Assembly: GCF_010548465.1 (NCBI RefSeq)
Contig: NZ_JAAGMD010000725.1
Span: 1 to 64,000 of the forward strand
Origin: Streptomyces sp. SID14436
Lineage (GTDB): Bacteria > Actinomycetota > Actinomycetes > Streptomycetales > Streptomycetaceae
DNA: 64,000 nt
Reading direction: 5' to 3'
Positions 7,282 through 42,140 of this stretch are shown one piece after another. Within the stretch, counting starts at the first letter, position 1, and each line of letters opens with the position of its first letter. The notes under the pieces are model-generated. The model did no database searches. It was not told the origin of the DNA and saw only the letters and a program-made list of their open reading frames with translations. A program made the translations under genes and the position numbers.

Positions 7282-7481
7282 GATGCCCCTCCCTCGCACA
7301 ACGCTGCATCCTGCGCAAACTTACTGGGTCTTGCGGGGGCTGTCGGAGTGGTTGTCCGGATCGAACTCGTGCGGATGGACGGGGGTGAGATGGGTGGGCG
7401 CCCTGGTCGGGCAGCCGCTCATCACGGTGCGGAAGTCGCACACGTCACCCTGCCGTAGAGGGCCTGCGCCTGCTCGCCTTG

Positions 7482-10084: not shown

Positions 10085-10122
10085 GAGGGTGTGCTGCTCC
10101 GTGGGGGTCGGTTGAGAGCTGT

Positions 10123-10150
10123 GCAGGGGGCGGGAGTCCCCGCCCCCTGC
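10123..10150 (-). terminator. 12-bp stem hairpin after sbcC copy 1
   Basis: Perfect inverted repeat GCAGGGGGCGGG / CCCGCCCCCTGC with loop AGTC, 10 bases after the sbcC stop codon at 10161. It has no long T run, as is usual for actinomycete terminators. It should limit read-through into the helicase gene, which starts about 40 bases further on. Confidence 0.7.
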
Positions 10151-10160
10151 AGGGTGCAGG

Positions 10161-13169: not shown

Positions 13170-13170
13170 G

Positions 13171-24667: not shown

Positions 24668-25753
24668 TTACAGGTCGTCGCGCCATGAGCGGTCCTGCTG
24701 GAGGAGTGTTGTTCCTGTGGCTTCTTGGGCGAGCCGGTTCCCGGTGGTGAGGATGTTGGCCGCTGGGTGGCGGAGGGGTTCGGGCAGCCAGGAGACGCGC
24801 CGTTGGGCGGCAAGGGGGTCGACTCGTTTCGGGGCCGGTCCTTGGATATTTTGCTTGAGAAGGAGCTGGTAGAGGCCGAGGGCGGGTCGGATGGGCGGGA
24901 GTCCTGATGCTGTGCCTGATGCGTTGGCTCGCTGGGGGATGGTGAGGCCGTCATCGTCGAGATCACCGTAGTAGGCGATGTCCGTCACGCCTTTGAGGTT
25001 CGCGATGCGGGTGACGGAAGCCTCGAAGGCGTGGCCGCCGCCGAAGGCCACGTAGCCGACGCGGGCGGGGTCTTGGGCGAGCAGGGTGCTGACGGTTGCG
25101 AAGGTGTCGCTGTTCTCGATCACCAGGACGGTGCCGCCGTCCCCGAGGTGTTCATAGGCCAGGGGTGGTGGGATCCGCTCGGTGAACAGGGTGGCCAGGG
25201 TGAGGCGTCCGGGTGCGAACAGCGTGCTGGTGGTGAGTGCGTCAAGACGCTTTTCGTCGCCGAAGATTTCCAGGGAGCGTTCACGCATGGGGATCACGGC
25301 CCTCCGGTGGGTGTCCCCGTCGGTGTCGCGCAGCCAGCGGTTGATCGTCTTGAGGGTCTCGGTCTGGGCGGTGGTCAGTTTGAGGGTGCTTGCCCAGGAG
25401 AGCTCCCGGCGCCACATGAGGGGTGCCGTGCGTGTTGGTCTGGGTTCTGTGGCCTTGGGTGGAGCGGGGAGACGGAGCCAGCGTGGCAGTGGTGGCTGTG
25501 TGTTGTCCCATCCGTCATGTGTGCGCGGCAGTTCGATCAGGTGGTGGTCGGCGAGTTCGTCGAGCAGGGCAGACAGGACGGGGCGGCTTTGGGTGGTGCC
25601 GGCTGTCTCGGGGCAGGCCTGGGTGAAGGCGTCGAGGATCGTGGCCTGTTCGACGCGGTGTTCCGTCCTCGAGGTCAGGGTGGTTGCCAGGCAGGCTGCT
25701 GAGGGGGTCAGCGGTTGCTGTTCGGGCTTCGTGTCGTCTCGGTTGGTGGTCAC
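24668..25753 (-). CDS. jetD: Wadjet nuclease subunit JetD
   Basis: A 361-residue protein. GTG 25751-25753 overlaps the jetC stop (GTGA). The N-terminal half has the RERSLEIFGDEKRLD segment seen before the Toprim domain of JetD proteins. The Toprim-type residues are visible: Glu in LVIENSDTF (about 213) and the acidic cluster YYGDLDDDGL (about 262). JetD is the topoisomerase VI-A-like nuclease that cleaves circular plasmid DNA once the JetABC SMC motor has extruded it. It is the last gene of jetABCD, in the canonical order. Which Wadjet subtype it belongs to cannot be settled by eye. Confidence 0.85.
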   Translation of the reverse strand: MTTNRDDTKPEQQPLTPSAACLATTLTSRTEHRVEQATILDAFTQACPETAGTTQSRPVLSALLDELADHHLIELPRTHDGWDNTQPPLPRWLRLPAPPKATEPRPTRTAPLMWRRELSWASTLKLTTAQTETLKTINRWLRDTDGDTHRRAVIPMRERSLEIFGDEKRLDALTTSTLFAPGRLTLATLFTERIPPPLAYEHLGDGGTVLVIENSDTFATVSTLLAQDPARVGYVAFGGGHAFEASVTRIANLKGVTDIAYYGDLDDDGLTIPQRANASGTASGLPPIRPALGLYQLLLKQNIQGPAPKRVDPLAAQRRVSWLPEPLRHPAANILTTGNRLAQEATGTTLLQQDRSWRDDL

Positions 25754-28700
25754 TGGTCGGTGGCCATCTGGTCGTGGTGGTTTTCCTGCCATGCGTCGCT
25801 GTTTTCGAGCGGGGCATGGGAGGCGCGTGGTTTCACCAGCAGTCGTGCGGCGTGGACTTGGCCGGTGGCGCCGTCTTCGTCCGGCGTTGTTTCGTGTGCG
25901 ATGTGGTCGGTGACGTGCAGATGGCGTGTCCCGGTGCGTTGGTCGGTGTCGTTGCGCAGCCGGATACACAGGGGGAACGTGGCCAGCACGCGGTCTTCCA
26001 TGTTCCCGGTGGTGTAGATCAGTTGGACGCCGAGTGCGGAGGCCATGTTCATTTGCAGGCTCAGCAGGTAGTCGGCGTTCGCTTTGCCGATTGGGTTGTC
26101 CAGGACCAGCATTCCGCCCAGGCGGTTGGTGGCGCGGGCTCCGGTCCGTGTGCTGGCGCGGAGTGCGGCAAGGGTGCAGTACAGCATGATCGCGCCGGTG
26201 AGTTCCTGGCCGCCGGAGAACACTTTGCTCATGTCGCTGATGGATGCGTATTCGGCGCGGCCGGCGGCGTCGGGCTTGAGGATCTCCACCTTGAAGTCGC
26301 GTGGGACCGCGGCGCCGACGCACCGCAGTACCAGGTCGCGGCCGGGCAGGTGGGGCTGGGTGCGGGCGTTCTCGTCGAGGGTCTCGGCGATCCGTACGGC
26401 AAGGATCTGCGGTTCCGGCGTGCTGAAGCCGATCTTCAGGATTCTCTGTTTGGCCCATGCCCCGGCGCCTTCAGGCAGGCGGGAGAGCCGCTCGGCCTTT
26501 TCGAGCAGGGCCAGGGCCTGGTTGGTGTGGTGTTTGAGCTGGTCGATCAGCAGGTTGCGGTGGCGTTCGGAGTCTTCCAGGTCGGTGGTCAAGCTTGCGG
26601 CCCGGCCTGTGAGTTGAATCGTCCACTGGCCGGCGCGCTCGATCAGCGACGTGGTGTCGATCTCCGTGAGTTGTTGGTAGATCGGCGCCTTGAGATTGGC
26701 GAATCGGTTCTGGTTGGCCGCTTCGCGGAACTGCGCGACGGCTTCGTTGACGGCCTGGTCTGCTTCGTGCAGTTGCTCGGTTGTGGTGCTGTGGGTCTGT
26801 ATTGCCTCGTCGGCGGTCTGCTGTGCTTCGTCGGCGGTTCCGGTGAACGGGGCGGCGCTGGGTGGTAGTTCCAGCCTGCGGGTGGCGGTGGTGAGGCTGC
26901 GGTGGACGACGGTCATCTCGCGTGCCGCGGCTTCGCTGGTGCGGAGTTTGCGTTCGGTGGCCCGTTGCGTCTCCGCGGCTGTCTTGAGCAGGGCTTCTGC
27001 GTCCTGCAGCGCGGAGGCTGCCCGTTCGGTGAGCTGCGCTCCTTCGGCAGGGTTTGAGGGGGTCCAGTCGGCATCGAGACTGCTCCAGGGCTTCCCGCTG
27101 GGCTGACCGGCGCGTGTTGCGTCTGCTTCCAGTTGGCCGCTGTGCTTGCTCAGATTGCGGTACTGAACCTCCAGGCTGCGCACGGTGCGGCCAAGCCGCC
27201 GTTTCGTGGCCTCGATGGTTTCGGCGCTGCCGGCTTCTGCGGATGCTGCCAGTGCTTTGGCCCGGGTCACGATCTCGGCCGGTTCACTGCGTAGTTCGGC
27301 ATCCCGGTCGGTTGTTTCCTTCTGTGCCTCCTCTACGCGCTGGCGTAGGTCCTCGCCGACTTCCACGGCACGGAAGCCCTCCGCCGCTTGGTGGTAGGCG
27401 ATCTCCAGTGCGGCCACATCGTGTTGCCCGGGATTGAGGGTGAGGGGCTGGTCTCCGTAGACGACCTTGTCCAGCCGGGCGGCGTAGGCGGCGGCGTCAC
27501 GGCGGAGCGACTCGGCTTGCACCGCGTATTCGGTGGCCTGGTCGCGCAGTCGGTCGGCTGCCTCGCTCAGTTCCTGGGCTGCGGTGTGATGTGCTGCGGC
27601 CTCGGTTTGAAGTGTCTCGATCTCCGCGCGGTTTGTGTCGGCGTCGGCGGCCTCTTGGGCGAGCAGTTGGAAGGAGTCGGCGGTGCGGGCGGTCTCCAGG
27701 GCGGCTTGTTCGGCGTCCTGGACGGTGGTGGTGTGCGCGGCCAGGATGTTGGCGGCTTGCAGGCAGGCGTCGCGGGCGGAGTCAAGGGCGGCCTTGGCGT
27801 CGGTGGCCGCGGCTGATTGGGTGTTCGCGAAGGAGCGTAGTTGCTCGATGTGTCCCGCCGGGTGGTCGCGCAACCAGTGGGTGAGCTGTACTTCCAACTG
27901 GAAGGCTGCTGCCTGGCGTTCGGCACATTCGTTCAGGGCTCGGCGGCGTTCTTCGATCCGTGCTGCGGCCTGTTCGCGCAGCTGGCCGGCGGCCTGGGAG
28001 TCGTGTAGGGCGGGGGTCGGCTCCACGACGAATCCGTTGCTCGGCTGGGGCGGTTCTGCTTCCAGTGGTTCGCGCGTGGAGACGAGCACGGCCGCGGCCG
28101 GCAGTTGCGGCATCTGTGTGAGCAGGGTCCGCGCCCGCTGCAGGGTTTCCTGGTCGGGCACCACGATGCCGTCGACCAGTGCAGGGTGGGCTTGGATGGA
28201 TGCGGCGTGCAGGCGGGGGTTTACCAGCTGTTCCAGAGCCCTCCAGCCCGCGGTCGCAGTTATCCGGTGCTCGGCCAGCAGCTCGAGCAGGTCCTCGACG
28301 GCCTGGCGCGGCGGCATGAGGGCCTCGTCCTCAACGGTGAGGGCTTCGATCAACCGCTGGTCCGCCCGGTCGTCGGCTCGCAGCGCGTCCAGCTGCTGGC
28401 CGGCCGATGCTTGCGCCGCGGCGGCCAGGTTGCGCAGCCAGGACGCGTTGTCTTCCAGCCACTGCGCGGGGTCGCCGCCGGGTACGTCCTCGTCATTGTC
28501 GAGTTCGGCGAGTTCACGCAACAGCTTCTGGGCGGCAAGTTCTGCCGCGGCACGCTGGGTGTCCTCGACCGCCCGTATCGCGGTCTCCCTCGCCTGCCGG
28601 GCCTTGACCTCGGGCTCGATCAGCTGATTCGCGACCTCGTCGAGCCGGCGGGTTTCTTGCTCGAGCCTCCGGTACTCCTCGCGTTCACGCGTCGCCTGGA

Positions 28701-30246
28701 TCTTGCTGTCGGTAGCCCGGGCACGCAGGCGGGCGTCGGCCTCGGCCACGGATTCGTCTTCGGCGATCAGACCAGCCTGCCGGGCCTGAGCAAGACGAGA
28801 GTCCACGCGCTCTACGTGCTGGCCGAGGAGTTCGGCTCGGACGGTGCGTGCGGTGGCCTGCTCCTCCCCCTCGGCCGCGCCGCGTTGCGCGTCGGCTGCC
28901 TCTGTCTTGCTGTGGGCGCTCTTGCGATCCAGGCGGTCGGCCTTCTCCGCGCACTGCTGCCTGCTGTGGTGCAGGGCCCCGGCGAACCGGGCACCGGCCT
29001 GGTCGCGGCGGAGCCGGGCAGCTCCCGCGGCCAGTTCGGCATCGTCCAGCAGCTCGCTGGCGACTCGATACTTCTCGTGTGCGGTGGCGGCTTTCAACAC
29101 CGTGGGGACGACGGCCCAGGCGGCCAGTTCGCTGCGTTCCTTGGCCAGTTGTCCTTCTGCCTGGACGGCCTGGGAGTGGGCCGCGTCGCGACGCAACACC
29201 AGGGCCTGACGTCGCACCTCTTTGTGGAGCAGGTCGGCCTTGTCGCGGGTCTGCTGCTGTTGTGCGGCGTTCTCCTTCGCCATAGCGGAGTCTTCACGCA
29301 GTGCGCGCAGTGCCTCGTCCGCCTGCTCGACGGATGTGCCCACCTGCGCCGCGAGTTGTGCCAGCGCCTTCGCGGCTAGGTGGGCCTGTTCGGCTGCCGT
29401 CCTCTGCTCGATACGCCGGCGGGCCAGGTGTTCGGCGGCTGTGGCCGTGGCGGTGGAGAAGTCGCGGTCCAGCAGGAGTTGCTCGCGTCGACCGATGTTT
29501 TTGGCATAGGCGCCGAAGGCGTCACCCAGTTCGGTGAAGTCCTCAGCGTCCACCGCCTTGCTCAGCAGCCACTGCGTGAACTGTCGCCCGGTGGTCGTCT
29601 TGAACGCCTCGGCCGCGTCTCCCTCATCGACGTTCATCGCCTGCTGGACTGCGAACAGGTCCGGTTCCAAGCCGAGCCGCCGCAGGTGTTTCTCCCACTC
29701 CCCCTGCCGTTTCTCGATCTCCAGGCGGAGTGTTTTGTCACCGGAGTCCAGCCGTCTGAGCGCGTCCTGGTAGGCGTTCATCCGCAACCGGCGCCCGCTC
29801 TCGGCGAAGGGCAGCGTGGCCAGGGTCGTCTCGGCGTTGGGGCTGAGCGAATAGAACGTCCGCTCCACGGTGCCGTCCGTGGCCGGGGTCAGTACCTGTC
29901 CGGTCACCAGCGTTTCACCGGTGCGGGCATGAACCCATTCCAGGACCACGTGGGAAGGGGCTGCCGCGGACACCACGTACGCGCGCAGTGCCTCACGGCC
30001 TTTACGGGACTGCCGCTCGGGTAGCACCGTGGACAACAGCATCCGGATCAGCACGGACTTCCCACCGCCGTTCTCCAGCACGAGCAGTGTCGCCGGTGCG
30101 GGGCGCCGGAACAGCTGGCCGGCCGCTGGGATGAGAGTGCTGACGGGGATCGGTGAGCCGCCCTCGGACAGGTCCAGCAGGACGTCGCCGTAACGGGCCC
30201 CGGTCGGGCCGATGTTGTACAGGCGGATGCGGTTCAGCTCGTACAT
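25750..30246 (-). CDS. jetC: Wadjet SMC-like ATPase JetC
   Basis: A 1498-residue SMC protein. Walker A is LENGGGKS (about 57-64); the middle about 1000 residues are coiled coil; the C-terminal head has the ABC signature FSGGQELTGA (about 1347) and a Walker B-like MLVLDNPIGKA in which Asp is followed by Asn. The loop-extruding motor of Wadjet, it works with kleisin JetA and KITE protein JetB. It starts 7 bases after jetB and overlaps jetD. The protein seems long for a JetC; the coiled-coil arms are the extended part. Confidence 0.88.
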   Translation of the reverse strand: MYELNRIRLYNIGPTGARYGDVLLDLSEGGSPIPVSTLIPAAGQLFRRPAPATLLVLENGGGKSVLIRMLLSTVLPERQSRKGREALRAYVVSAAAPSHVVLEWVHARTGETLVTGQVLTPATDGTVERTFYSLSPNAETTLATLPFAESGRRLRMNAYQDALRRLDSGDKTLRLEIEKRQGEWEKHLRRLGLEPDLFAVQQAMNVDEGDAAEAFKTTTGRQFTQWLLSKAVDAEDFTELGDAFGAYAKNIGRREQLLLDRDFSTATATAAEHLARRRIEQRTAAEQAHLAAKALAQLAAQVGTSVEQADEALRALREDSAMAKENAAQQQQTRDKADLLHKEVRRQALVLRRDAAHSQAVQAEGQLAKERSELAAWAVVPTVLKAATAHEKYRVASELLDDAELAAGAARLRRDQAGARFAGALHHSRQQCAEKADRLDRKSAHSKTEAADAQRGAAEGEEQATARTVRAELLGQHVERVDSRLAQARQAGLIAEDESVAEADARLRARATDSKIQATREREEYRRLEQETRRLDEVANQLIEPEVKARQARETAIRAVEDTQRAAAELAAQKLLRELAELDNDEDVPGGDPAQWLEDNASWLRNLAAAAQASAGQQLDALRADDRADQRLIEALTVEDEALMPPRQAVEDLLELLAEHRITATAGWRALEQLVNPRLHAASIQAHPALVDGIVVPDQETLQRARTLLTQMPQLPAAAVLVSTREPLEAEPPQPSNGFVVEPTPALHDSQAAGQLREQAAARIEERRRALNECAERQAAAFQLEVQLTHWLRDHPAGHIEQLRSFANTQSAAATDAKAALDSARDACLQAANILAAHTTTVQDAEQAALETARTADSFQLLAQEAADADTNRAEIETLQTEAAAHHTAAQELSEAADRLRDQATEYAVQAESLRRDAAAYAARLDKVVYGDQPLTLNPGQHDVAALEIAYHQAAEGFRAVEVGEDLRQRVEEAQKETTDRDAELRSEPAEIVTRAKALAASAEAGSAETIEATKRRLGRTVRSLEVQYRNLSKHSGQLEADATRAGQPSGKPWSSLDADWTPSNPAEGAQLTERAASALQDAEALLKTAAETQRATERKLRTSEAAAREMTVVHRSLTTATRRLELPPSAAPFTGTADEAQQTADEAIQTHSTTTEQLHEADQAVNEAVAQFREAANQNRFANLKAPIYQQLTEIDTTSLIERAGQWTIQLTGRAASLTTDLEDSERHRNLLIDQLKHHTNQALALLEKAERLSRLPEGAGAWAKQRILKIGFSTPEPQILAVRIAETLDENARTQPHLPGRDLVLRCVGAAVPRDFKVEILKPDAAGRAEYASISDMSKVFSGGQELTGAIMLYCTLAALRASTRTGARATNRLGGMLVLDNPIGKANADYLLSLQMNMASALGVQLIYTTGNMEDRVLATFPLCIRLRNDTDQRTGTRHLHVTDHIAHETTPDEDGATGQVHAARLLVKPRASHAPLENSDAWQENHHDQMATDQ

Positions 30247-30253
30247 GGCCGGA

Positions 30254-31060
30254 TCAGTCTCCTGGCTCGGCTGCGGTCAGGGGCGTTGCGGGGGCGGCGT
30301 CGGGCTGTGGGCTGCTGAAGGCGGGTCGGCCGTCTGGTCCCACGGTGATCCCGAGCTCGGCCAGCTGGCCGAGCATCTGCTGTCCGGCCAGCTCCCGTAC
30401 CTGGATCTGGTAGCGGGCTGTGGTGGTGTAGGTTCCGCCGTTCTCCTTGCCCGCGCGCCGCAGCATTCCGTTGTCGGCGAGGTATTCGGCGACCCGCTTG
30501 ATGAGGGCGTGCCTGCTTTTGGAGTGGGCGCGGTCATCCCCGGTGGAGGAGACAGGATTGCGTCGCTGGTAGTAGCGCCACAGTTGGATCAGGTCCGGAT
30601 GGTCGGCGGGAACTCCGTCGTCGGTGTCGGCTTCAGCGGCTTGGCGTTCCAGTTCCTTGGTGGCCTGCTCGACCATCACGTCGACGTGGCGGACGGTGAT
30701 GCGGCCGACGTGGGCTGGGTCGTCCAGGTCTTCGGGGCGGTAGTAGGCGAGCGCGGCGATGGCCAAGTGGGCCAGTGCCGCGATCGGACGGTCGGCGGGT
30801 TTGCTGATGTGGTCGGTGACGCTGACCGCGAACTGGGTTTCGGCGGTCGCCCCGAGCACCAGTCCGGCCCGTGAGTCGACGGCGATCACTGTCAGGTCGA
30901 AGCCGCTTGCGGCGGCGTGCAGGAGTTGGGCAAACTCCTGGTCGGTGCGGCAGCGACCTACCAGCGCGGCGTACTCGGCGTTGCGGCGGGGTGTCAGTCC
31001 GGGTTGGAAGCCGAAGGCGAGCAGCCGGTTGACGGCGGCCGTGTCGTTGACGTTGTTCAC
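30254..31060 (-). CDS. jetB: Wadjet KITE-like subunit JetB
   Basis: A 268-residue protein that starts inside the jetA stop (ATGA-type overlap at 31057-31060) and ends 7 bases before jetC. Winged-helix-like segments are visible (LIKRVAEYLADNGMLRRAG), as expected for a KITE-type subunit that binds the kleisin JetA. The last about 25 residues are a Pro/Ala-rich tail. The assignment depends mainly on position between jetA and jetC and on size. Confidence 0.75.
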   Translation of the reverse strand: MNNVNDTAAVNRLLAFGFQPGLTPRRNAEYAALVGRCRTDQEFAQLLHAAASGFDLTVIAVDSRAGLVLGATAETQFAVSVTDHISKPADRPIAALAHLAIAALAYYRPEDLDDPAHVGRITVRHVDVMVEQATKELERQAAEADTDDGVPADHPDLIQLWRYYQRRNPVSSTGDDRAHSKSRHALIKRVAEYLADNGMLRRAGKENGGTYTTTARYQIQVRELAGQQMLGQLAELGITVGPDGRPAFSSPQPDAAPATPLTAAEPGD

Positions 31061-32547
31061 GCCGCGCCCTCCTCGAGGCCGTTGTCGGTCGGCAGGGCAG
31101 AGGCTGCCGGGCTGTGGACGACCAGGAGGTCGTGACCGGCGAACCGGTCGTCATCCAGTTCGCGGTCGTCGGCCAGGGCTGCCAGCGCTGTGCCGCGCTC
31201 GGGGTCGTGGCGCGGGGCACCGAACAGGCCCAGTACGTGCAGGGCCAGCAGATGGTCGAGGTTGTCTCGTCCGGCCGATATGCCGTGCCGGCGTGCTGCG
31301 TTCAAAAGCTCGGACAGGCGGATGCCGTCGGTGTCGGTGCGTTTCAGCAGTGAGGCGACGGCCGTGTACTGCTCGTCGGAGAAGGTGGCGGTGTCTTCTG
31401 CGTCGCCGAATTCGGGTTCGATGATCAGACTGTCGTCGCCGTCGGGTTCGGCCGGCGGCGTCATCAGTCCGGTGATCAGGTCCGGGAGGTAGATGATCGC
31501 CGGGCGGTGCGGCGGGGTCGCCGCCGTCGCGAACGTGCCGAGCAGCGGAAGCGCCTGCCGTACCGGCAGTTGCAGGGCCGGTTCGAGCAGCTGGCGTTCG
31601 AGGTCGACGTGGGTCCGGCTGGGGGGCGGCACGAAACTCTGGCGCTCTTGTTCGGCGCGGAACCGTTCGCCTACTTCCTGGAGGTTCGCCTGCAGGGATG
31701 CGTGTCTGCGCAGGCACTCCTCGAGGATTGCGATCAGCTCGGCGGCCTGGGCCGGGGTGGTGTCTTCGGTGCTGTTTTCCATCATCCGGACCAGGTTGTC
31801 CTTGATGGTGTTTTCGGCGTTGATGCGGTCCTCGATGTGTTCCAGCGCTTCGGTCTGCATGCGCTGCACGTCACGGACCCAGTCCACCGAGCGGATGTCC
31901 CGGCGCATGCCTTCCAGCCGGGTGCGGATGTGCTCGGTGTATTGCACGGTGCGGCGCAGCGCCATCTCCGCGGCGCGGTGGGCGTCAGTCAGCCGTCCTC
32001 GTCGCACCAAGGCTTCGAGCTTGGCGTCGGCGGCGACCTGTTCGGAGGCGATGTCGAGGTCCACCGCGCCGACGAGCACCGCGATCGCTTCGTTGGAGGC
32101 GCGCAGGCGTGGCCGTCCGTCGGGTCCTGGAACTTCGCGCAGCAGCTTGAAGGAGAAGGTCTGCGCGGTGTAGGTGCTGTGGGAGACGATGCCGTAGAGG
32201 TGGCTGAAGTCGCGGTCGACGGTGCCGACGTTCAGCAGGCTGTCGAGGACCCAGCGGGCTACGGCGGTATGTTCGTCGCGGTCGCGCTGCGGCATCTGAA
32301 GCCCTGCGACGCGTGCCACGGCGGCCACGATGTCCTCGTGTCGTGCACCGTCGTCGAAGTCCATCTTCAGTGTGACGGTGTCGATGGCGGTGAGCGCCAG
32401 TTCCTCCATTTGGTAGCCGGTCCACTCGCGTGAGGCGAGCAGGGGCTTGCGGCGTTCCAGGTCTAGGACGGGGTCGGCGACCGCGAGTGCCTTCACACGA
32501 GTTGCCAGTCCCAGCGTGTCGCGGCCGTGAAGTCCCGCTTCAGACAT
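31057..32547 (-). CDS. jetA: Wadjet kleisin-like subunit JetA
   Basis: A 496-residue, mostly helical protein, the first gene of jetABCD. It has an N-terminal winged-helix-like region, a charged helical middle (residues about 160-300, possible coiled coil) and a C-terminal DNA- or SMC-binding-like region (SLLKRTDTDGIRLSELLNAA). A strong GGGAGG site precedes the ATG at 32545-32547. JetA is the kleisin that links the JetC heads. The gene begins 122 bases after the sbcC copy 2 stop on the same strand, so read-through from sbcDC is possible. Confidence 0.78.
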   Translation of the reverse strand: MSEAGLHGRDTLGLATRVKALAVADPVLDLERRKPLLASREWTGYQMEELALTAIDTVTLKMDFDDGARHEDIVAAVARVAGLQMPQRDRDEHTAVARWVLDSLLNVGTVDRDFSHLYGIVSHSTYTAQTFSFKLLREVPGPDGRPRLRASNEAIAVLVGAVDLDIASEQVAADAKLEALVRRGRLTDAHRAAEMALRRTVQYTEHIRTRLEGMRRDIRSVDWVRDVQRMQTEALEHIEDRINAENTIKDNLVRMMENSTEDTTPAQAAELIAILEECLRRHASLQANLQEVGERFRAEQERQSFVPPPSRTHVDLERQLLEPALQLPVRQALPLLGTFATAATPPHRPAIIYLPDLITGLMTPPAEPDGDDSLIIEPEFGDAEDTATFSDEQYTAVASLLKRTDTDGIRLSELLNAARRHGISAGRDNLDHLLALHVLGLFGAPRHDPERGTALAALADDRELDDDRFAGHDLLVVHSPAASALPTDNGLEEGAA

Positions 32548-32669: not shown

Positions 32670-35600
32670 CTACTGCGCCAGTGTCTGCAGGCCGCTGGCC
32701 AGGTCGGCTTGCACGAGGTCGTCGCGTTCGTCCGGGGTCAGCCAGCGTGTTCTGGACCCGGTGGCGCCCCGCTCCACCCACAGCACCTCATCGACGGCCT
32801 CGGCAACGGCGTGCAGATGGCTGATCACCATGACGAGGCGGTCGCCGCCGGCTCGCGCGCGCAGTACCTCCAGGGCCGCATCCAGTGCAGCCGCATCGAG
32901 TGCTGCGAAACCTTCGTCGAGGAACAGGGAGCCCAGGCTCGAGCCGCTACGGGAATGCAGTTCGGCCAGTGCCAGCGCCAGAGCGAGTGAGGCCTGGAAC
33001 TTCTCCCCGCCGGACAGCCGGTTCGGGGGGTGGATGACCCCGGAGGTGCGGCTGACGATGTCGAAGCTGTCGGCGAAGCCGAATCGGCCGTCGGTCATCT
33101 GGCCGAGCAGTTCGCTGGCGACGTCGCGCAGCGCGCGGGTGCGCAGCATCGTGAGGTGGCCCAGGAACTTGGCGTCGACCAGTTCACGGCGCAGCACGTC
33201 CAGCGCCTCGGACCGGGCGCGGCCGGCGGTGATGGCGAAGTCCAGGTCGGCGGCCGGCTTGATCATGTCCTGTGCGCTCTGTTGCTTCTGACGCTGTTCC
33301 TTGGCCTCCAGGTCCGCCTGTGCTGTGGCCATGACGAGGGGGTGCAGGGCGTCTGCTGCCGTCAAATCGGCGGCGGGGTCGAACCCGTCAACGTCGGCGA
33401 GCTTGGCCGTCTGGCCCCGCAGACTCTCCGTCGCGGCCGCTGCTCGCTGGGCGGACGCGTCGGCGCGCTCGGCAAGCCGGCCGCCCAACGCCGCTGTGGC
33501 TGTGGCCAGTTCGGCGGCGAACCGGCGGGTGGCGCAGATCCCGGGCGCGGCGGGGGCCTGGGGTACGGGGCACACGTCGGCTGCGTCGAGGTGCGTGACC
33601 GCGTCGGTGACGGCTTGTGCCCAGGCATCCAGGTTGCCGCGCAGCTCATTCAGCGGGCGGTCCACACGGGTGCGGTCCTCCTCGTCGAGGGCGTGCTGCC
33701 GGCTGAGCACGGCAGACTTCTTCTGCCGTGCTGTTTCCCGCTGGTCGGACAGGCTTTGGAGTGCGGCCTGCCGGGCGGTCACGGCGGCGAGTGCGGTCGA
33801 CGCTGCGTCGTCGGTCACCTCGATCGCATCGCTGGGCAGCGTGGCCCGGATCCGCGGGGGCAGCGCGGTCAGGGCGCGGCTGATCTTGCCGATGGCGCGG
33901 GTGTGTGCCGTGAGGGCGGTCTGCTGGTCGTCGACGGCGCGTTGGTAGGAGTTCTTGCGTTCTGTGAGCGTCGCACGGTCCGTGTCGATCAGGGCGGTGC
34001 GGCGGTGCACGTCGGTCTGCAGGTGCTCGGCATGATCTTCGGCTGCCTGTTCGCATGCGGTGATCGCTTCAGTGATCGGTGCGGCGTCCCGCTCGAGGAG
34101 CTCCTCGCGGTGGTCGGCTCCGTCGTCGGGGGTGGTCTGGGCGGCGGTGATGGCGATCAGCGTCGCCGATGCCGTCTCGCTGTCGAAGTCGTGACCTGCG
34201 GTGGCCGTGGTCGTGAGATCGCTGAAGGCGCGCTCCGCCTTGGCCGTGGCTTCGCGCGCGGCCTGCTGTGCCGTGCGATGGTCCGTGTCTCGGTCGCGGA
34301 TGGCTGTTTCGGCCGCTGTCACGGCGGCGCGGGCCTGGGCGAGCTGGTCGGCGGCGGCCCTCTGTGTCCTGGTCGCCTGGGTGAGTTGGGTTCTTGCCTC
34401 GGCCAGCTCGGCGGAATCGGTCCCGGATGCCGGTTCGAAGCCGTCCGGGAGTTGTTGGCGGCAGACGGGGCAGTCGTCGCCGTCGTGCAGTTCAGCGGCG
34501 ATCGCGGCGGCCTGGTCGCGTTGTTGCAGCGTGTCCACGCGCCTCTGGGCGGCAGCGAGGTCCTTTTCTGCTGCGACGTGTGCCTCTTGCTTTTCAGCGC
34601 AGGTGTCTTGAGCGGCTTGGTGCCGACTCGCCGCGGTGGTCTGGCCGCGGACGGCGCCGGCGAGGCGGCTGGCTGCTGCGAGGGCCGCGGTCAGTTGGGT
34701 GCGGGCATGGGCGGCCTTCTGGCGCACGCGCTTGGCCGTTTGGGCGGCGGCACGCGCCTGCTGCGCCAACGGGTCTATCCGGGCGGTGCGTTCGGCGAGT
34801 TCAGCTTCGGCGCGGGTGATGGCCTCGCCTTCGCCTGCGAGTTGTTCGCTCTGCCGGGCGAGCCGGTCGCGTTCGCCTCGGAGCTCTGCGGCGTCCGCTG
34901 CGAGGGTTTCGAGAACCACTGCGGCTTTACTGAGGGCGTCTTGGCCTTCGCCTTCCGCGTCCGCTGCGGCGATCGCGTCCGTCAGGCTGCTTTCCTGTTC
35001 TGCGGCACTTGTGGCCTCAAAGTTCAGGGCCTCGCGTCGTGCGGCGATGTCGGCGGCGACCGGTTCGAGGGCCTCGAGGGTGGGGCCCGCGTCGGCCACG
35101 GTGCGCGTGGAGAGCGTGTGCGCGGCGGCGGTGGCCCCCTCAGCGGCAGCCTGGGCCGTGGCTACTTCCTTCTGCAGTTGGGTGATGCGGCCGATGGCCT
35201 CCTTCAGGCGTTCGGCGCGGGCTTCAGCCTGCTCGGCGGCCGCGCCGGCTTCCTCGGCGGTCTGCTCGGGGGCGTCCGGCATGGACGCACGCTTGGCCTC
35301 GGCGCCCGCCAGAAGGCCCTTGAGCGTCTCACGCTGGCGGGCCGCCACCCGCTGGATGGACTCCAGCGACTCGGCACCGAACAGTTCCCGCAGCAGCTTG
35401 CCGCGTTCTTTGGGGGCCGCGATGAGGAGCTGGTCGAACTTGCCCTGCGGAAGCAGCCCCACGCGCAGGAACGTCTCGTAGCTCATCTGCAGCACCGCTT
35501 TGAGGCGGGCGTCGACGGCGCCAGCGTTGTCTGTCTCCTCGCCGGTGTCGAGGTTCTTCAGATGGTGCCGGCCGGCGTTCGCGTTGGTGGCATGCATGGT

Positions 35601-35864
35601 GCGGTGGACGTGCCAGCGCTGTCCCTCGTGCAGGAAGGTGAGGTCGACGCTCATGGCCTTTGCGCCGTCGGCGATGAGCTGCCCCGGGCTGTTGGCGTTC
35701 CAGGAACTTTTGCGGAACAGGGCATAGGTGATGCCGTCGAGGAGGCTGCTTTTGCCGGCTCCGGTGTCGCCGAGGACGCCGACCAGGCCGCGGCCAGTGA
35801 AGTCGACGGTGACCTGGCTGGGGTAGCTGCGGAATCCGTTGAGGGTGAGCGTCAGGGGCTTCAT
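32670..35864 (-). CDS. sbcC: SbcC/Rad50-like subunit, copy 2
   Basis: A 1064-residue SMC ATPase. Walker A is GDTGAGKSS near residue 38, the zinc hook CPVCRQQL is at about 465, the signature is LSGGEKFQASLALA and Walker B LFLDEGFAALD. The ATG at 35862-35864 overlaps the sbcD stop (ATGA). It differs strongly from copy 1 in length, hook sequence and coiled coil, so the two pairs are not a recent duplication. It is directly upstream of jetABCD. Confidence 0.92.
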   Translation of the reverse strand: MKPLTLTLNGFRSYPSQVTVDFTGRGLVGVLGDTGAGKSSLLDGITYALFRKSSWNANSPGQLIADGAKAMSVDLTFLHEGQRWHVHRTMHATNANAGRHHLKNLDTGEETDNAGAVDARLKAVLQMSYETFLRVGLLPQGKFDQLLIAAPKERGKLLRELFGAESLESIQRVAARQRETLKGLLAGAEAKRASMPDAPEQTAEEAGAAAEQAEARAERLKEAIGRITQLQKEVATAQAAAEGATAAAHTLSTRTVADAGPTLEALEPVAADIAARREALNFEATSAAEQESSLTDAIAAADAEGEGQDALSKAAVVLETLAADAAELRGERDRLARQSEQLAGEGEAITRAEAELAERTARIDPLAQQARAAAQTAKRVRQKAAHARTQLTAALAAASRLAGAVRGQTTAASRHQAAQDTCAEKQEAHVAAEKDLAAAQRRVDTLQQRDQAAAIAAELHDGDDCPVCRQQLPDGFEPASGTDSAELAEARTQLTQATRTQRAAADQLAQARAAVTAAETAIRDRDTDHRTAQQAAREATAKAERAFSDLTTTATAGHDFDSETASATLIAITAAQTTPDDGADHREELLERDAAPITEAITACEQAAEDHAEHLQTDVHRRTALIDTDRATLTERKNSYQRAVDDQQTALTAHTRAIGKISRALTALPPRIRATLPSDAIEVTDDAASTALAAVTARQAALQSLSDQRETARQKKSAVLSRQHALDEEDRTRVDRPLNELRGNLDAWAQAVTDAVTHLDAADVCPVPQAPAAPGICATRRFAAELATATAALGGRLAERADASAQRAAAATESLRGQTAKLADVDGFDPAADLTAADALHPLVMATAQADLEAKEQRQKQQSAQDMIKPAADLDFAITAGRARSEALDVLRRELVDAKFLGHLTMLRTRALRDVASELLGQMTDGRFGFADSFDIVSRTSGVIHPPNRLSGGEKFQASLALALALAELHSRSGSSLGSLFLDEGFAALDAAALDAALEVLRARAGGDRLVMVISHLHAVAEAVDEVLWVERGATGSRTRWLTPDERDDLVQADLASGLQTLAQ

Positions 35865-37183
35865 CGCGTCGTCTCCGCTGCAGTGGTGTCGGTCCCGGAC
35901 AGCAGGCCTGAGCGGTCGAGGCCGTCGAGGGGGCGGCCGTCGAGGGCCGCGGTCAGCAGGGTCTCCTCGCAGCACGGTGCCGGGTCGTCCAGGTCGGGTT
36001 CGGCTTGCAGATGTGCGAGGGCGGTCATGGCGCGGTCCAGGGCCAGGCCGGTGGTTCCGCGGCCGGGCAGGTAGTCGCGCAGCAGCTCTTCGATGCCGGG
36101 CAGGTCGGTGGAGGTCTGCCGCTGCTCCGGCACGGTCTCGATGGCCGTGGCGCGGCGTTCGTCGACGGCGACGAGTGTTGCCCGCGGCAGCATCTTGGCC
36201 AGGGTGTCCGGCAGGAACGGGTCGGGGACCTCGACGTTCACCACCGCCTTCACCCAGGCGTCGTTGACCCGGCCGGCGCGTTGCGCGATTTCTTCCAGGG
36301 TGCCCTCCAGGCGGACCAGGCGGCGGCCGGAGGTCAGGGGAACGAGTTCGATGCGGGGCGTGCCGGTCGGGCCGACCTCGGCCAGGACCACGCTTTTGGT
36401 GTCGCCGCTCTCGCCGAAGTCCATCTGCAGGGGGCTGCCGGCGTAGTGGGCCGGGTATCCGGCGCGCTGGACGCGCTGCGGTTTGTGGATGTGGCCGAGG
36501 GCGCCGTAGGCGACGTCGGGCAGGTCGGCGGCAGCTGTCGCGTAGTCGTCGGCGATGGAGATCTTCCGCTCCGAGTAGGAGGGAAGGGCCCCTTCGACGA
36601 ACAGGTGGGCGGCGAAGACCAGGACATCCCGGGCGCCGCGCCCTGCGGCGAGGCGGCGGTAGACGTCGGCCTGGACGGTGCGCAGCCGCTCGGCGTAGGT
36701 CGCGGTCGTCAGGGCGGGGTCGGCGAAGTCGTAGGCGAACCGGTTGGGGTGCAGGTACGGCAGTGCGCCGATGCGCAGTGTCAATTCCCCGTCCTGGGCG
36801 GGGTAGTCGGCCACCAGCAGCCCGTCGGGGCGGGCGTCGGTGGCGAAGCGGACCCGGGCCTGTCCGGCTTCGCCGACGTCCATGCCGTTCAGGATGAACT
36901 CCAGGAAGGCCAGGACGTTGCGGGTGTCGTGGTTGCCGGCGACGACGACCACGGGGGCGATCGCGCCGAGGCGGTGCAGCGCCTGCGCCGCGCGGCGCAG
37001 GTCGTCCAGGCCGGGCCGGGAGGTGTCGAACAGGTCGCCGCTGTGCACGATCAGGTCGGGGGCGAAGCCGGCGGCGATGTCGATGATTTCGTCCAGGACG
37101 GCGTCTACTTCTGTGTCGCGTCGGTGGCGGCCGAGCTGGCGGCCCAGGTGCCAGTCGGAGGTGTGGAAGATGCGTCCCGTCAC
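35861..37183 (-). CDS. sbcD: SbcD/Mre11-like subunit, copy 2
   Basis: A 440-residue metallophosphoesterase with the motifs HTSDWHLGR, VHSGDLFDTS, VAGNHDT and GHIHKPQRV. GTG 37181-37183 is chosen because GGAG lies six bases upstream and the protein then begins V-T-G-R-I-F-H-T-S-D, in line with family N termini; an in-frame upstream start at 37237 would overlap the promoter region. It is co-translated with sbcC copy 2 and divergent from the nuclease-helicase operon. Confidence 0.9.
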   Translation of the reverse strand: MTGRIFHTSDWHLGRQLGRHRRDTEVDAVLDEIIDIAAGFAPDLIVHSGDLFDTSRPGLDDLRRAAQALHRLGAIAPVVVVAGNHDTRNVLAFLEFILNGMDVGEAGQARVRFATDARPDGLLVADYPAQDGELTLRIGALPYLHPNRFAYDFADPALTTATYAERLRTVQADVYRRLAAGRGARDVLVFAAHLFVEGALPSYSERKISIADDYATAAADLPDVAYGALGHIHKPQRVQRAGYPAHYAGSPLQMDFGESGDTKSVVLAEVGPTGTPRIELVPLTSGRRLVRLEGTLEEIAQRAGRVNDAWVKAVVNVEVPDPFLPDTLAKMLPRATLVAVDERRATAIETVPEQRQTSTDLPGIEELLRDYLPGRGTTGLALDRAMTALAHLQAEPDLDDPAPCCEETLLTAALDGRPLDGLDRSGLLSGTDTTAAETTR

Positions 37184-37281
37184 GGGTGTCTCCAGGAGGG
37201 CCGGGGGTTCGATGGCGCCGACTGTACACGGAATCACAGGAAGAAGTCTGGAAAATCTGGAACTCTGGTAACGTCGGGGTC
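37184..37281. promoter_or_regulatory. divergent promoter region with TCTGGAA-type repeats
   Basis: This 98-base gap separates sbcD copy 2 from the plus-strand nuclease-helicase operon and must serve both. About 37247-37270 contains three near-direct repeats, TCTGGAA, TCTGGAA and TCTGGTA, spaced 9 and 8 bases, ending about 12 bases before the ATG at 37282. They could be an operator, or part of the promoter. No Shine-Dalgarno stronger than GGGG is seen before that ATG. Confidence 0.45.
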
Positions 37282-38124
37282 ATGAGTGATCCTCTGGACG
37301 CCTTGGAGAAGAGCATCAGCACCCTGCGCCGCGCAATCCGCGACGCTTCCGCCGCAGGCGACAGCGAGCGCGCCGGCGAGCTGCGGGCGCAGCTCCGCCG
37401 CGCCGAGCGCGCCTGGGACGCCCTGATCGACACCGGCGAACCAGCCCCCGCGCCGCTGCCCCGCACCGTGCCGACCACACCACCGGCTGCCTTCGGCTCG
37501 CAGCTTCCGGCACGCGAACACGTCCACCGCGCGCTGATGCTGCTCGGCACACCGGCCGCCCCCAAGCTGATCGTGGGGGTGCACGAGGCGTTCTTCCCCG
37601 GCGAGTTGTCCGCGTCCAAGCTGTCCAGCCTGCGCCGGGACGAGGCGCGGTCCTATCAGTCCAGCCCCGGAGCCCGGCCCTACTATCTCTGCTCGGCACT
37701 GGCCCACGACCTGCTGACTCCGGTACGGGCGCTGCTCACCATCAGCACCTGGCCGCTGGAACAGCGCATCATCGGCCCGCTGTCCCCACGCGTCGACTTC
37801 CTCACCGGAGCCATCCGCATCGCCGAGGCTGTTCACGCCGCCGAGTCGTCAGCCGGAGGCGAACCCAGCGCTGCGGCCCTGCGGCTGCTGTGGCGCTTCG
37901 CCGCGAACATCCCCGACGCGATGCCCTCGAGTGCCCCGGGACGAGAGAGCGCACTGGATACGCAGCAAGTGATCGACGCCGCCCGGACCGAGCTGGCCGT
38001 GCACCTCGACGCCGACCGCGCAGTCCGCTCCGAAGCCTCACGGCGGGCCCGCACGCTGCACGAAGCCCAGCAACTGTTCGGCGCACCCCCGCAGAACGTC
38101 ACGCCTCTGCGGGCCCGGGCCTGA
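37282..38124 (+). CDS. unknown helical protein, first gene of the nuclease-helicase operon
   Basis: A 280-residue protein. The first about 50 residues are strongly charged and coiled-coil-like (LEKSISTLRRAIRDASAAGD), then a Pro-rich linker, then a region from about residue 75 with aromatic motifs (EAFFPGELSASKLSSLRRDE) that may be a winged helix. ATG 37282 is preferred over an upstream in-frame ATG, since the latter would overlap sbcD. No family recognised. It begins an operon with a nuclease and a helicase, so a DNA-binding or regulatory role is a guess. Confidence 0.7.
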   Translation: MSDPLDALEKSISTLRRAIRDASAAGDSERAGELRAQLRRAERAWDALIDTGEPAPAPLPRTVPTTPPAAFGSQLPAREHVHRALMLLGTPAAPKLIVGVHEAFFPGELSASKLSSLRRDEARSYQSSPGARPYYLCSALAHDLLTPVRALLTISTWPLEQRIIGPLSPRVDFLTGAIRIAEAVHAAESSAGGEPSAAALRLLWRFAANIPDAMPSSAPGRESALDTQQVIDAARTELAVHLDADRAVRSEASRRARTLHEAQQLFGAPPQNVTPLRARA

Positions 38125-38159
38125 CCCCCGTCCCCTCCCCCGCAAGGATCTCCACCACC

Positions 38160-39317
38160 GTGAAACCACCCGTCGACGGCCGCCTGGACGCACTGCGCGG
38201 ATCTTCACCACGGCTGTCCTACAACGCCCGGTCGCTGGCCGCCCTGGAGAACAACCCGCGCTGCACGCTGCGGGCCCTGCTGGACGCCTCCGGATCCGAC
38301 AAGGCCACGATCGCCGCGCACATCGGCTACCCGTCCCCCTTCGGCCAGTCCGCCTTCGCCTTCGCCCGCGGCAACGCCTTCGAGGCGATGGTGAAGGACA
38401 ATGGATGCGCCGAACTCCTGCGCGTCCTGCGCGAGACCCTCAAGCTGACGCTGCCCGAGGTGGCCTACCTGGACCTGAACGAGGTCGGCGGCGCCGGCGA
38501 CAACGACGCCCGCCACAATCGCACCACCGAAGTCCTGCTGCAGGCGGCCCGGGGAACCGGCGAGGGCACCCTGTTCGATCACCCGCTGCTGCACCTACAG
38601 GTCGGCGGCGAGGGTGCGTTCCTGGAACCGGACCTGGTCGCCTTCCGCATCGACGGCCGCTTCTACATCGTTGAGATCAAGAGCTTCCCGATCATCGACG
38701 GGCAGGCCGACCCGGCACAGGTGCGGGCGGCCACGACCCAGGCATGCGCCTACATCATCGCGTTGCGCGCCCTCCTCGCGCAGCACGGGATCAGCACGGA
38801 GGCCGTGTCCGACACCATCGTGCTGGTCGCACCGAAGGACTTCACCAACCGGCCGACCGCGGCGTTCGTGGACGCCCGCAAGCAGGTTGCCGCCCTGACC
38901 CGCCAGCTGTCCCGCATCGAGCGCATCAGCGACCTCGTGGACCTGCTGCCCGACGGGCTGACCTTCGACCTCGACCTCGACCTCACCCTCCCCAAGAAGA
39001 AGCAACGGCCCCGCCGCCCGGCCGAAGAACTGGCCGCGGCCGTGGAGCAGGTGCCCGCGACGTACCGCCCGGACTGCCTCAACCATTGCGAGATGGCCTT
39101 CCACTGCCGCGCCCACGCCCGGTCGGAGGCCTCGCTGGACGTGCTCGGCCCCGCGGTGCGCGAGCAACTCGGCGGCATCGACACCGCCACCATGGCCCTG
39201 GGACTGGCCCGCGGCCATCTGACACCGACAGAAGATCAGAGCGACATAGCAGCCGCGCTGCGGCACGCCGCCCGGCTGCGCGACGAGTTGACCAGGGCCT
39301 ACGGGGGTGCTGCATGA
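38160..39317 (+). CDS. PD-(D/E)XK nuclease with probable Fe-S cysteines (Cas4/RecB-like)
   Basis: A 385-residue protein starting at GTG 38160. The nuclease core is visible as EPDLVAF (about 156) and YIVEIKSF (about 168-175), the D...ExK pattern of the PD-(D/E)XK fold. A Cys at 35 and a C-terminal group C306, C310, C316 resemble the one-plus-three cysteines that hold a 4Fe-4S cluster in Cas4 and AddB-type nucleases, although the spacing is slightly different. It would degrade or nick DNA. Its stop overlaps the next start (ATGA). Confidence 0.78.
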   Translation: MKPPVDGRLDALRGSSPRLSYNARSLAALENNPRCTLRALLDASGSDKATIAAHIGYPSPFGQSAFAFARGNAFEAMVKDNGCAELLRVLRETLKLTLPEVAYLDLNEVGGAGDNDARHNRTTEVLLQAARGTGEGTLFDHPLLHLQVGGEGAFLEPDLVAFRIDGRFYIVEIKSFPIIDGQADPAQVRAATTQACAYIIALRALLAQHGISTEAVSDTIVLVAPKDFTNRPTAAFVDARKQVAALTRQLSRIERISDLVDLLPDGLTFDLDLDLTLPKKKQRPRRPAEELAAAVEQVPATYRPDCLNHCEMAFHCRAHARSEASLDVLGPAVREQLGGIDTATMALGLARGHLTPTEDQSDIAAALRHAARLRDELTRAYGGAA

Positions 39318-40822
39318 GCATGCTGTCGGCGCTGGCGCACGCGGAGGCGATGGAAACCATGACGGCCATCCCCCAGACCGCGTTCCGCCACCACCGCCTG
39401 TCGGACCGCCCACTGGTCGTCATTCCACTGACGATGGCCGGCGAAGCCGGGGCCCCGCTGGCAGCCATGGTCGGCACCACCAAGAGGGACATGACCCTGC
39501 TGGTCGTGCCGCAGCCCCGCAACCGTGACCAGCGGTTCGCCTTCGCCGCCGACTTGGGCCGGCGCGTGATGGACTACATCGACTCCCACCGCCAGGACCG
39601 CCGCGGCGAAGGCGAACGCTCCCGGTACACCGACGTGCCGCAGATCCTCGTCCCCAATCCGGGCGGCATCAAGGCGCTGGCCGACCTCGGCCGCATGTGC
39701 CGCTTCCGCTCGACCTCCGGCCCCTACGCCGTGCCGGACGTCGTTCCCGAGTTCGGCATGTGGCTGACCTTCCTGGTCGAGACCGCCGAGATGGCCGGCA
39801 CCTCCATGCTGCGCCCCCTGACCACGCTGCTCACCGAACACTGGGCCACCGGCCAAAGCGCGCTGGAGGACCAGAACCTGGCCTCGCTCATGGCCTGGAT
39901 CGCTCCCCCGCCCGGGGTGAGCGTCCAGCAGGCCCTGGAGGAGGCGGAGAACCCGGACGTCTGCCCGCCGGCCGGCCCGGCGACGTCCCCGGAGTTCGAC
40001 AACCGCGATCTGGCACCAGCCATCAAACGGTTCGACGCTGCTCACATACTCGGCGACCCGCAGGCGTTGGCCGCCGCCCAGAGGGAGCTGTCCGATCTGA
40101 TCGCTGACCAGATCAAGCCCACCTGGCGCTTGATGTGGACGGCCATCTCGCTGCTGCGGTCCGTCCCCGAGGCACCACAGACCACCCGGCGCCTCGACCG
40201 CGACTGCCGGCTCTTCACCGGCTACTCCGACTACCGGGACGCCGGCGGCCTCCCCCAACGCGCGCGGGACAACGCGATCGGCGCGGCACGGCGCCTGAGT
40301 CAACTCGAGCGGGCCCTGGCCGACTTCGAGGCCGCCATGGCCTTCGACGACCCATTCGTGCTGGCCGACTGGCGCAGCGGCGGAGAGGCATTCGCCGGAA
40401 CGGTTGTGGAGGCCGAGGCCGACCGGATCGTCACCACGGCCAAGAACAGGCGGGTGCCGCGCCCGCGCGCCACCGTCCGCACCCAGGACCCTCTGCGCCT
40501 GGCCCCCGGCACCAAGCTGGTCAGCCCGTCCATGCCGGCCGGCCACAAGGCCGTCATCGTCTCCGTTCTCCCCGACGGCGAGGCGACACTCGTCACGGTG
40601 GAGGTCACCGCCGGAATGGGCCGAGCCCGCACTCCGAAGGCGGGCACCGTTCCAGTCCTGGACCAGGACATCGCCTACCTTCCCGACCCGGGGTGGCGCC
40701 CGACACCGAACTTCCCGGACTCCGATCGCACCCCGTGGACGCACAGCGTCACCGCCGATGGTCCGGACGACGCAGGCGTGCCCGAGGACGCCGCCGCAGA
40801 GGAGTGGGGACATGAAAACTGA
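39314..40822 (+). CDS. unknown protein between nuclease and helicase genes
   Basis: A 502-residue protein without a recognised family. The first about 180 residues contain beta-type stretches (PLVVIPLTM, DMTLLVVPQP), the middle is helical, and the last about 130 residues look like a small beta-rich domain (PGTKLVSPSMPAGHKAVIVS). ATG 39314 overlaps the nuclease stop, and the gene overlaps the helicase start by 11 bases. Tight coupling on both sides indicates that it is a core component of the same system. Confidence 0.75.
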   Translation: MSMLSALAHAEAMETMTAIPQTAFRHHRLSDRPLVVIPLTMAGEAGAPLAAMVGTTKRDMTLLVVPQPRNRDQRFAFAADLGRRVMDYIDSHRQDRRGEGERSRYTDVPQILVPNPGGIKALADLGRMCRFRSTSGPYAVPDVVPEFGMWLTFLVETAEMAGTSMLRPLTTLLTEHWATGQSALEDQNLASLMAWIAPPPGVSVQQALEEAENPDVCPPAGPATSPEFDNRDLAPAIKRFDAAHILGDPQALAAAQRELSDLIADQIKPTWRLMWTAISLLRSVPEAPQTTRRLDRDCRLFTGYSDYRDAGGLPQRARDNAIGAARRLSQLERALADFEAAMAFDDPFVLADWRSGGEAFAGTVVEAEADRIVTTAKNRRVPRPRATVRTQDPLRLAPGTKLVSPSMPAGHKAVIVSVLPDGEATLVTVEVTAGMGRARTPKAGTVPVLDQDIAYLPDPGWRPTPNFPDSDRTPWTHSVTADGPDDAGVPEDAAAEEWGHEN

Positions 40823-42140
40823 CAGCACCGCCGCCGCGAGCGCCGCCACAACGGCGATCCTGTCCGATCTGGCCGACGCCCGCCACCAGGCCGTCGTCGT
40901 CGACTCTCCGCCCGGCGCCGGCAAGAGCACCCTCGTGGTCCGCGCTGCCCAGGAACTCGCCGCGGGCGGCGAACGGCCAATCATCATCGCTCAGACAAAC
41001 AATCAGGTCGACGACCTGATCAAGAAGCTCGCCGGCAGCCACCCTGGCATCGCCCTCGGCCGCCTGAGTGCCAGTGACTACAGCCCGCCGCCAGCACTGG
41101 ACGGGCTGACGAACACCATCATCGGCCGCACCCTGACCGATCTGTCCGGCTGTCAGATCATCGTCGGCACCTCCGCCAAGTGGGCCACCGTGCGCGATGG
41201 CACATTCGGCTGGGCGATCCTGGACGAGGCCTACCAAATGCGCTCGGACATGCTGCTGCAGCTCGTCGAACGCTTCGAGAGGGGCCTGTTCGTCGGCGAC
41301 CCCGGCCAGCTGGACCCGTTCACGATCGTCGACACCGAGCGCTGGATCGGGCTGCCGCACGACCCAACGCAAAACGGCGTCAGCGTGATGCTAGAGCACA
41401 ACCCACACATCCCCGTGCACCGGCTGCCGGTGTCCTGGCGCCTGCCCTCCTCCGCCGCCCCCACCATCTCCCAGGCCTTCTACCCGTTCACCGACTTCGC
41501 CGCCGGAACCAACAACGGCACCCGCGCACTGGAGTTCCGCACACCCGGACTCCGCAAAACCTGCCTGGACGAGACCCTTGCGATGGCCTTCACCACCGGC
41601 TGGGCCCTGCACGAGCTGCCCCGCCGTCACGTTCCGCGCACCGACACCGAAACCATCCAGTCAGCCGCGCACCTCGCCGAACGGCTCTTGACCCGCGGAG
41701 CAGTCGCCACCTGCGAAAACAACCCCGCCGGCCGCGACCTGGGCGCCGCCGACATCGCCATCGGCGTCGCCCACCGAGACCAGGCCGACCTGGTCCGCGC
41801 TGCCCTCACCAGGACCGGGCACCCGGACGCACCAAGGGTGGCGGTCGACACCGCGAACCGGCTGCAGGGCCGCGAGTTCGAAGTCGTCATCGTCGTACAC
41901 CCGCTGTCCGGCCGACGCGACGCCACCGCCTTCCACCTCGAAGCCGGACGGCTGTGCGTCCTCGCCTCCCGCCACCGGCAGGCATGCATCGTCGTCGCTC
42001 GCGAGGGCATCGCCGACCTTCTGGACAGCCACCCCTCGACCGACCCCGTGCACCTGTCCGTGCGGGCCAAATTCCCCGATGGCTGGGAAGCCAACCACGT
42101 CATGCTGGCCAAGCTCGCCCAGCACCGCGTCGCCGCATAA
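40812..42140 (+). CDS. SF1 (UvrD/Upf1-type) helicase
   Basis: A compact 442-residue SF1 helicase. Walker A is SPPGAGKST (32-40), motif II is ILDEAYQM (about 136-143), motif III GDPGQLDP (about 163), motif V QGREFEVVIV and motif VI ASRHRQACIVV. It lacks large insertions and accessory domains and is short compared with RecB or UvrD. ATG 40812 lies in the 3' end of the preceding gene. With the PD-(D/E)XK protein it would form a helicase-nuclease pair. Confidence 0.85.
   Translation: MKTDSTAAASAATTAILSDLADARHQAVVVDSPPGAGKSTLVVRAAQELAAGGERPIIIAQTNNQVDDLIKKLAGSHPGIALGRLSASDYSPPPALDGLTNTIIGRTLTDLSGCQIIVGTSAKWATVRDGTFGWAILDEAYQMRSDMLLQLVERFERGLFVGDPGQLDPFTIVDTERWIGLPHDPTQNGVSVMLEHNPHIPVHRLPVSWRLPSSAAPTISQAFYPFTDFAAGTNNGTRALEFRTPGLRKTCLDETLAMAFTTGWALHELPRRHVPRTDTETIQSAAHLAERLLTRGAVATCENNPAGRDLGAADIAIGVAHRDQADLVRAALTRTGHPDAPRVAVDTANRLQGREFEVVIVVHPLSGRRDATAFHLEAGRLCVLASRHRQACIVVAREGIADLLDSHPSTDPVHLSVRAKFPDGWEANHVMLAKLAQHRVAA

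Follow-up and report, generated by a model that had tools for sequence, protein, structure and literature searches.

The window analyzed here is the whole stretch of 64,000 nt at positions 1 to 64,000 of contig NZ_JAAGMD010000725.1 from Streptomyces sp. SID14436 (GCF_010548465.1). Its forward strand carries four consecutive genes, namely P1 (37282..38124, 280 aa), P2 (38160..39317, 385 aa, GTG start), P3 (39314..40822, 502 aa), and P4 (40812..42140, 442 aa), with a gap of 35 bases between P1 and P2 and overlaps of 4 (P2/P3) and 11 bases (P3/P4). SbcD2 (Mre11-like, 35861..37183, 440 aa) and SbcC2 (Rad50-like, 32670..35864, 1064 aa) are encoded divergently on the reverse strand, the 98 bases between the SbcD2 start (37183) and the P1 start (37282) forming a divergent control region (37184..37281). 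The jetABCD genes of a Wadjet system (24668..32547) follow sbcC2 on its own strand after a gap of 123 bp and were assigned to type III with the PADLOC models JetA3 (2.7e−191), JetC3 (0), and JetD3 (1.1e−119), jetB being recognized by position only. An ORF check reproduced the four reading frames, their lengths, both overlaps, and the 98-base gap exactly as an earlier note on this DNA had given them.

The surroundings have the character of a defense-like island. One 1132-aa protein (3901-7299) combines a Caspase/CHAT-like domain with a P-loop ATPase and a GT4-conflict glycosyltransferase, and a 906-aa protein in the same island (21164-23884) ends in a C-terminal TerD domain. Positions 7829-14397 hold a second SbcCD and, after it, a DEAD helicase that carries three HA domains; a related helicase lies after P4 in locus L134 and beside SbcC in L018. 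An IS4/5-type transposase fragment just after P4 (42676-43191) and a phage-integrase fragment (47131-47580) are marks of mobility. A phage or viral carrier of the genes was rejected, as viral contigs and phage records gave no match.

A scan with P3 in one genome per species recovered 35 loci in Streptomyces, Kitasatospora, Streptacidiphilus, Catenulispora, Actinomadura, Nocardia, Nonomuraea, and other genera, and in all of them except L017 and L034 SbcD was divergent from P1-P4 in the same order. This arrangement, SbcD(C) divergent from P1-P2-P3-P4, is referred to as form A and was counted in 40 non-redundant loci; its synteny spans several orders of Actinomycetes, from Streptomyces to Nocardia. 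The P2/P3 overlap is exactly 4 bases in 39 of the 40 loci, the P3/P4 overlap 11 bases in 23, and the SbcD/SbcC overlap 4 bases in 35, with a spacing between SbcD and P1 of mostly 132-137 bp. Because the same overlaps recur over 40 related loci, the arrangement of P1-P4 and SbcCD is not due to chance. The earlier note had proposed a linked module of four genes: its homologues are indeed strictly linked rather than scattered, but the kept order, divergence, and overlaps show that SbcC2-SbcD2 and P1-P4 together constitute one conserved divergent unit of six genes, not four.

The control region of this unit is conserved as well. Alignment of the form A intergenic regions and a weight-matrix scan defined a 27-bp element (AGTCTGGAAAACTCTGGAACTCTGGTA), a triple TCTGG repeat situated at ~37244-37270 in the window and ending ~12 bp before P1, which has many invariant positions and at least 19 matches out of 27 in 33 of the 38 intergenic regions compared. 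In the window, the spacing between repeats 1 and 2 is one base less. An operator common to the module and Wadjet was rejected, as the whole window contains a single copy of the element and the jet genes of the scanned loci showed none. Scans for sigma-70 promoters and intrinsic terminators gave nothing.

SbcD2 matches TIGR00619 with 125.8 bits (cut-off 77.65) and retains the catalytic motifs DxH/GD/GNHD/GHxH, and SbcC2 shows AAA_23, SMC_N, and SbcC_Walker_B together with a CPVC zinc hook, TIGR00618 remaining below its cut-off. The genome encodes two SbcD-like genes besides SbcD2. SbcCD is absent or shortened in L012 and L017 and apparently fragmented in L110; because P2-P4 and Wadjet persist in these three loci, SbcCD may be dispensable.

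P1 and P3, which the earlier note had described as unknown proteins, had no significant family match in Pfam, NCBIfam, and PADLOC-DB 2.0.0, and those of P2 in Pfam, PADLOC, and NCBIfam were at noise level (13 bits for the best one in PADLOC-DB 2.0.0). No relatives turned up when profiles of P1, P2, and P3 were run against the PDB, and Pfam searches with 22 P3 and P2 homologues gave weak matches only (TOBE_2, 0.017; PDDEXK_1, 0.0095). P1 consists of an N-terminal helical/coiled-coil-like segment and a conserved remainder, and the protein is shared by forms A and B (form B is described below).

The reading of P2 as a PD-(D/E)XK nuclease with Cas4-like cysteines was borne out by a PD..ExK motif, by the nuclease residues E75, D140, D158, E172, K174, Q194, and Y198, and by C35, C306, C310, and C316. 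In a residue census, all nuclease residues were retained in 39 of the 40 form A proteins, the one from L143 lacking D140 only. The AF2 model of P2 (mean pLDDT 65, core at ~120-220 well predicted) matched human EXO5 in the PDB (Foldseek E 1e−4, Z 8.9), along with Cas4, MGME1, AddB, AdnA, RecB, and Dna2 (Z about 6). By sequence and predicted fold, P2 thus has an intact nuclease site of the RecB/Cas4/EXO5 type, and the four conserved cysteines suggest that it likely carries a 4Fe-4S cluster. Among the neighbors recognized around P2 in form A there were no cas genes; only in L034 (7900-15806) do P1-P4 lie at a CRISPR locus, directly upstream of cas3 of a type I-E-like system.

P4, noted earlier as a compact SF1 helicase, exceeds the Pfam cut-offs of AAA_11 (38.7 bits) and AAA_12 (35.9 bits) and contains the conserved motifs GAGKS, DE, GDPGQ, SWR, QGxE, and SRHR. 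Its PDB profile search returned IGHMBP2 (6e−11) and then DNA2 (5e−10), by which P4 is classified as an SF1B motor closest to IGHMBP2/DNA2. In PADLOC-DB 2.0.0 it showed similarity in the helicase motor only, with no near-full-length system protein. For P3, the AF2 model (mean pLDDT 65) contains a C-terminal beta-barrel (350-460, mostly pLDDT > 80) preceded by stalk helices (312-346) below 50. The barrel assignment rests on VIA-align against the PDB, where the top five rows were Ighmbp2 (Z 8.5, P3 313-464 on Ighmbp2 5-144), Senataxin/Setx (7.5), and Sen1 (about 7). These Z values are middling, and unrelated barrels reached 5.5-6.8; Foldseek with the P3 model alone found nothing below E 0.001. 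In Ighmbp2, Setx, and Sen1 the matched residues form the part before the first RecA domain, a part that is absent from P4. The structural comparison thus points to an Ighmbp2/Setx/Sen1-like barrel, probably the missing piece of the P4 helicase. Since the stalk helices are predicted with low confidence, its likeness to the stalk/1B barrel of Upf1-like SF1B helicases has good grounds as a hypothesis but falls short of proof. The gene order P2-P3-P4 follows the domain order of Dna2 (nuclease, barrel, motor), so that on these models the three proteins resemble a Dna2 split over three overlapping genes. The models support a single three-subunit Dna2-like nuclease-helicase in which P3 would provide the barrel that P4 lacks.

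Of 293 genomes from the order, 281 had a relative of P3; the corresponding figures were 70 of 394 for the class and 11 of 296 for the phylum. These relatives include two further forms. Form C is a copy of P2-P3-P4 (~41-57% identity) present in nearly all Streptomyces, with no detectable P1 and without SbcCD or Wadjet, whose neighbors encode a histidine phosphatase, a protein of 138 aa, and one resembling Prim-Pol; the genome of the window has one itself (G000:C443:91-1674), and others are L067, L068, L071, and L132. Because this copy is core in Streptomyces, the P2-P3-P4 enzyme is not specific to defense as such. Form B, in 9 loci (L072, L074, L076, L136-L141), has genes for a PDDEXK_1 nuclease and a pPIWI_RE_Y/REase protein on the far side of the divergent region from P1-P4. 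All four cysteines of P2 are kept in form B, and the catalytic residues are replaced in 9 of 9 proteins (K174 is always R, combined with H for E75 and L for E172 in some proteins and with Q for D158 and S for Y198 in the others), for which reason P2 appears to be a dead nuclease where P1-P4 faces other nucleases.

A Wadjet system adjoins 36 of the 40 form A loci, with types confirmed by PADLOC models as I (14), II (13), and III (9); in L033 it is a remnant only, and in L025, L027, L029, and L134 none was present in the available stretch. Its placement varies between after P4 on the same strand (in annotated plasmids, a DUF3375/DUF4194/SMC/JetD operon directly follows P4), after SbcC, and convergent on the module, with a median gap of 153 bp. 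Of the 41 relatives that lack SbcCD (forms B and C as well as others), not one had a Wadjet beside it, a difference from form A with a Fisher p of 7e−19 that is only indicative, since the compared loci are related to each other. The link with SbcCD2 and Wadjet suggested earlier is strongly supported by this co-occurrence. On the P3+P4 tree the Wadjet changes its type, side, or strand at least 16 times; well-supported sister loci such as L006 and L015 have type I vs. type II at the same position. The divergent form A members L131, L133, and L143 (P3 ~34-41% identical) also have Wadjets, of types I, III, and II. As the link was kept through these changes, the coupling was rebuilt repeatedly, and nothing else speaks as strongly for a functional partnership between the module and Wadjet. 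The converse does not hold, with only 3 of 7 close JetC3 homologues in form A loci (197 genomes) and many Wadjets lacking the module. Of these 197 genomes of Streptomycetales, 183 have a JetC3-like gene, in most cases a distant copy that lies away from P1-P4 (e.g., G001:C1:1682470-1687098).

SbcCD acts on DNA ends, and Dna2-like helicase-nucleases degrade DNA from ends. Wadjet cleaves small DNA circles and leaves linear DNA intact (PMC10586767). The simplest chain would be cutting, end capture, unwinding, and degradation. Wadjet would extrude and cut small circular plasmids, SbcCD would seize the ends and trim or open them, and P2-P3-P4 would then unwind and degrade the DNA, blocking re-joining or repair of the plasmid; P1 could perhaps be a DNA-binding or adaptor subunit. 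We lean, by a modest degree, towards the six genes being a DNA-end-processing accessory of Wadjet that most likely degrades the DNA it has linearized. Counted against this accessory role are the four form A loci without Wadjet, the losses of SbcCD, the core Streptomyces copy, the weak P3 model, and the Wadjets without the module. More tentatively, and with somewhat less than even confidence, we propose a two-stage elimination in which an SMC cutter of any Wadjet type hands over to a resection complex of Mre11-Rad50 and a three-way-split Dna2, together with an uncharacterized split-Dna2 enzyme that is core in nearly all Streptomyces.

The main rival is a parallel arm of defense, where SbcCD and P1-P4 would sense unprotected linear ends (phage genomes, linear plasmids) invisible to Wadjet. 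The two would then be neighbors because they jointly cover circular and linear invaders, and not because either acts on what the other produces. It could draw on the escape of linear DNA from Wadjet (PMC10586767), on the attack of E. coli SbcCD on hairpin-ended linear replicons, which phage TelN counters (PMC12624138), and on the occurrence of form A near Streptomyces replicon ends (L025), where self ends carry a protein cap, yet alone it leaves the near-exclusive choice of Wadjet as neighbor over other anti-plasmid or anti-phage systems unexplained, and we judge it unlikely. In several Streptomyces replicons (L025, L131, and annotated plasmids) the distance of form A from the end is a few kb to ~15 kb; the finished replicons L025, H2, and L131 carry it near their ends, and an enrichment of Wadjet at the ends of Streptomyces chromosomes is known (PMC10482375). 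Both observations would suit a mere co-location in subtelomeric defense islands with no functional link; against the direct adjacency (median 153 bp), the three Wadjet types, the link kept through at least 16 rearrangements and present also in Nocardia and Nonomuraea, and the 0 of 41 SbcCD-less relatives with a Wadjet, such co-location is disfavored and highly improbable. A third possibility is a repair or genome-protection module limiting the damage by Wadjet to its host by repairing breaks in the chromosome or in plasmids worth keeping. SbcCD and Dna2-type proteins are resection enzymes and the core P2-P3-P4 copy of Streptomyces is housekeeping-like, but many Wadjets do without the module and the form B relatives of P1-P4 sit with restriction-type nucleases in apparent defense loci, which makes a protective role quite improbable.

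A Wadjet accessory remains our preferred interpretation, and a module that follows Wadjet through its changes of type is a strong candidate for the step after cutting. Reviews cover how Wadjet recognizes and cuts plasmids; the papers examined here say little on what becomes of the DNA afterwards. A search of the open literature, with subscription papers and preprints largely outside its scope, did not find Wadjet linked with SbcCD and a P1-P4-like module. Besides, nearly every Streptomyces genome would encode an unannotated helicase-nuclease, in hosts whose chromosomes are linear.

As to known systems, no assignment of all four genes emerged from Pfam, PADLOC, NCBIfam, or the literature, in line with the earlier note, and a known defense system was rejected, there being nothing for P1-P3 in PADLOC, Pfam, and NCBIfam. 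Gabija (GajAB) is likewise a defense pair of nuclease and SF1 helicase with DNA-end sensing, but it has an OLD/Toprim nuclease and a UvrD-like helicase and is homologous to the module in the motor only. AdnAB, AddAB, and RecBCD appear to share a nuclease of the same superfamily and an SF1 motor acting on DNA ends, whereas P4 is SF1B (Upf1/IGHMBP2/DNA2 type) and not UvrD-like SF1A, and nuclease and motor are on separate chains. The three-gene pPIWI-RE system, described as a triad of an REase, followed by DinG and pPIWI (PMC3702460), is touched by form B, where the genes facing P1 include its Y/REase protein, but the Y-REase was not found beside P1-P4 in the window. Wadjet types I, II, and III are direct neighbors in 36 of 40 loci and probably belong to the same pathway, although the module lies outside any described Wadjet and has its own nuclease, helicase, and SbcCD. 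Eukaryotic Dna2 is also close in design: from N- to C-terminus it has a RecB-type nuclease with an Fe-S cluster (likely in P2), a beta-barrel (suggested for P3 by its model), and an SF1B motor, in the order of the genes P2-P3-P4, and the pairing of the module with SbcCD parallels that of Mre11-Rad50 with Dna2 in end resection. The module differs in being bacterial, Wadjet-coupled, equipped with an extra P1, and divided into three separate proteins in 40 of 40 form A loci. P2-P3-P4 are not classed as Dna2 family because the domains are not on one polypeptide, but they may work like Dna2, and if so, we know of no earlier counterpart in bacteria to the pairing of Mre11-Rad50 with Dna2.
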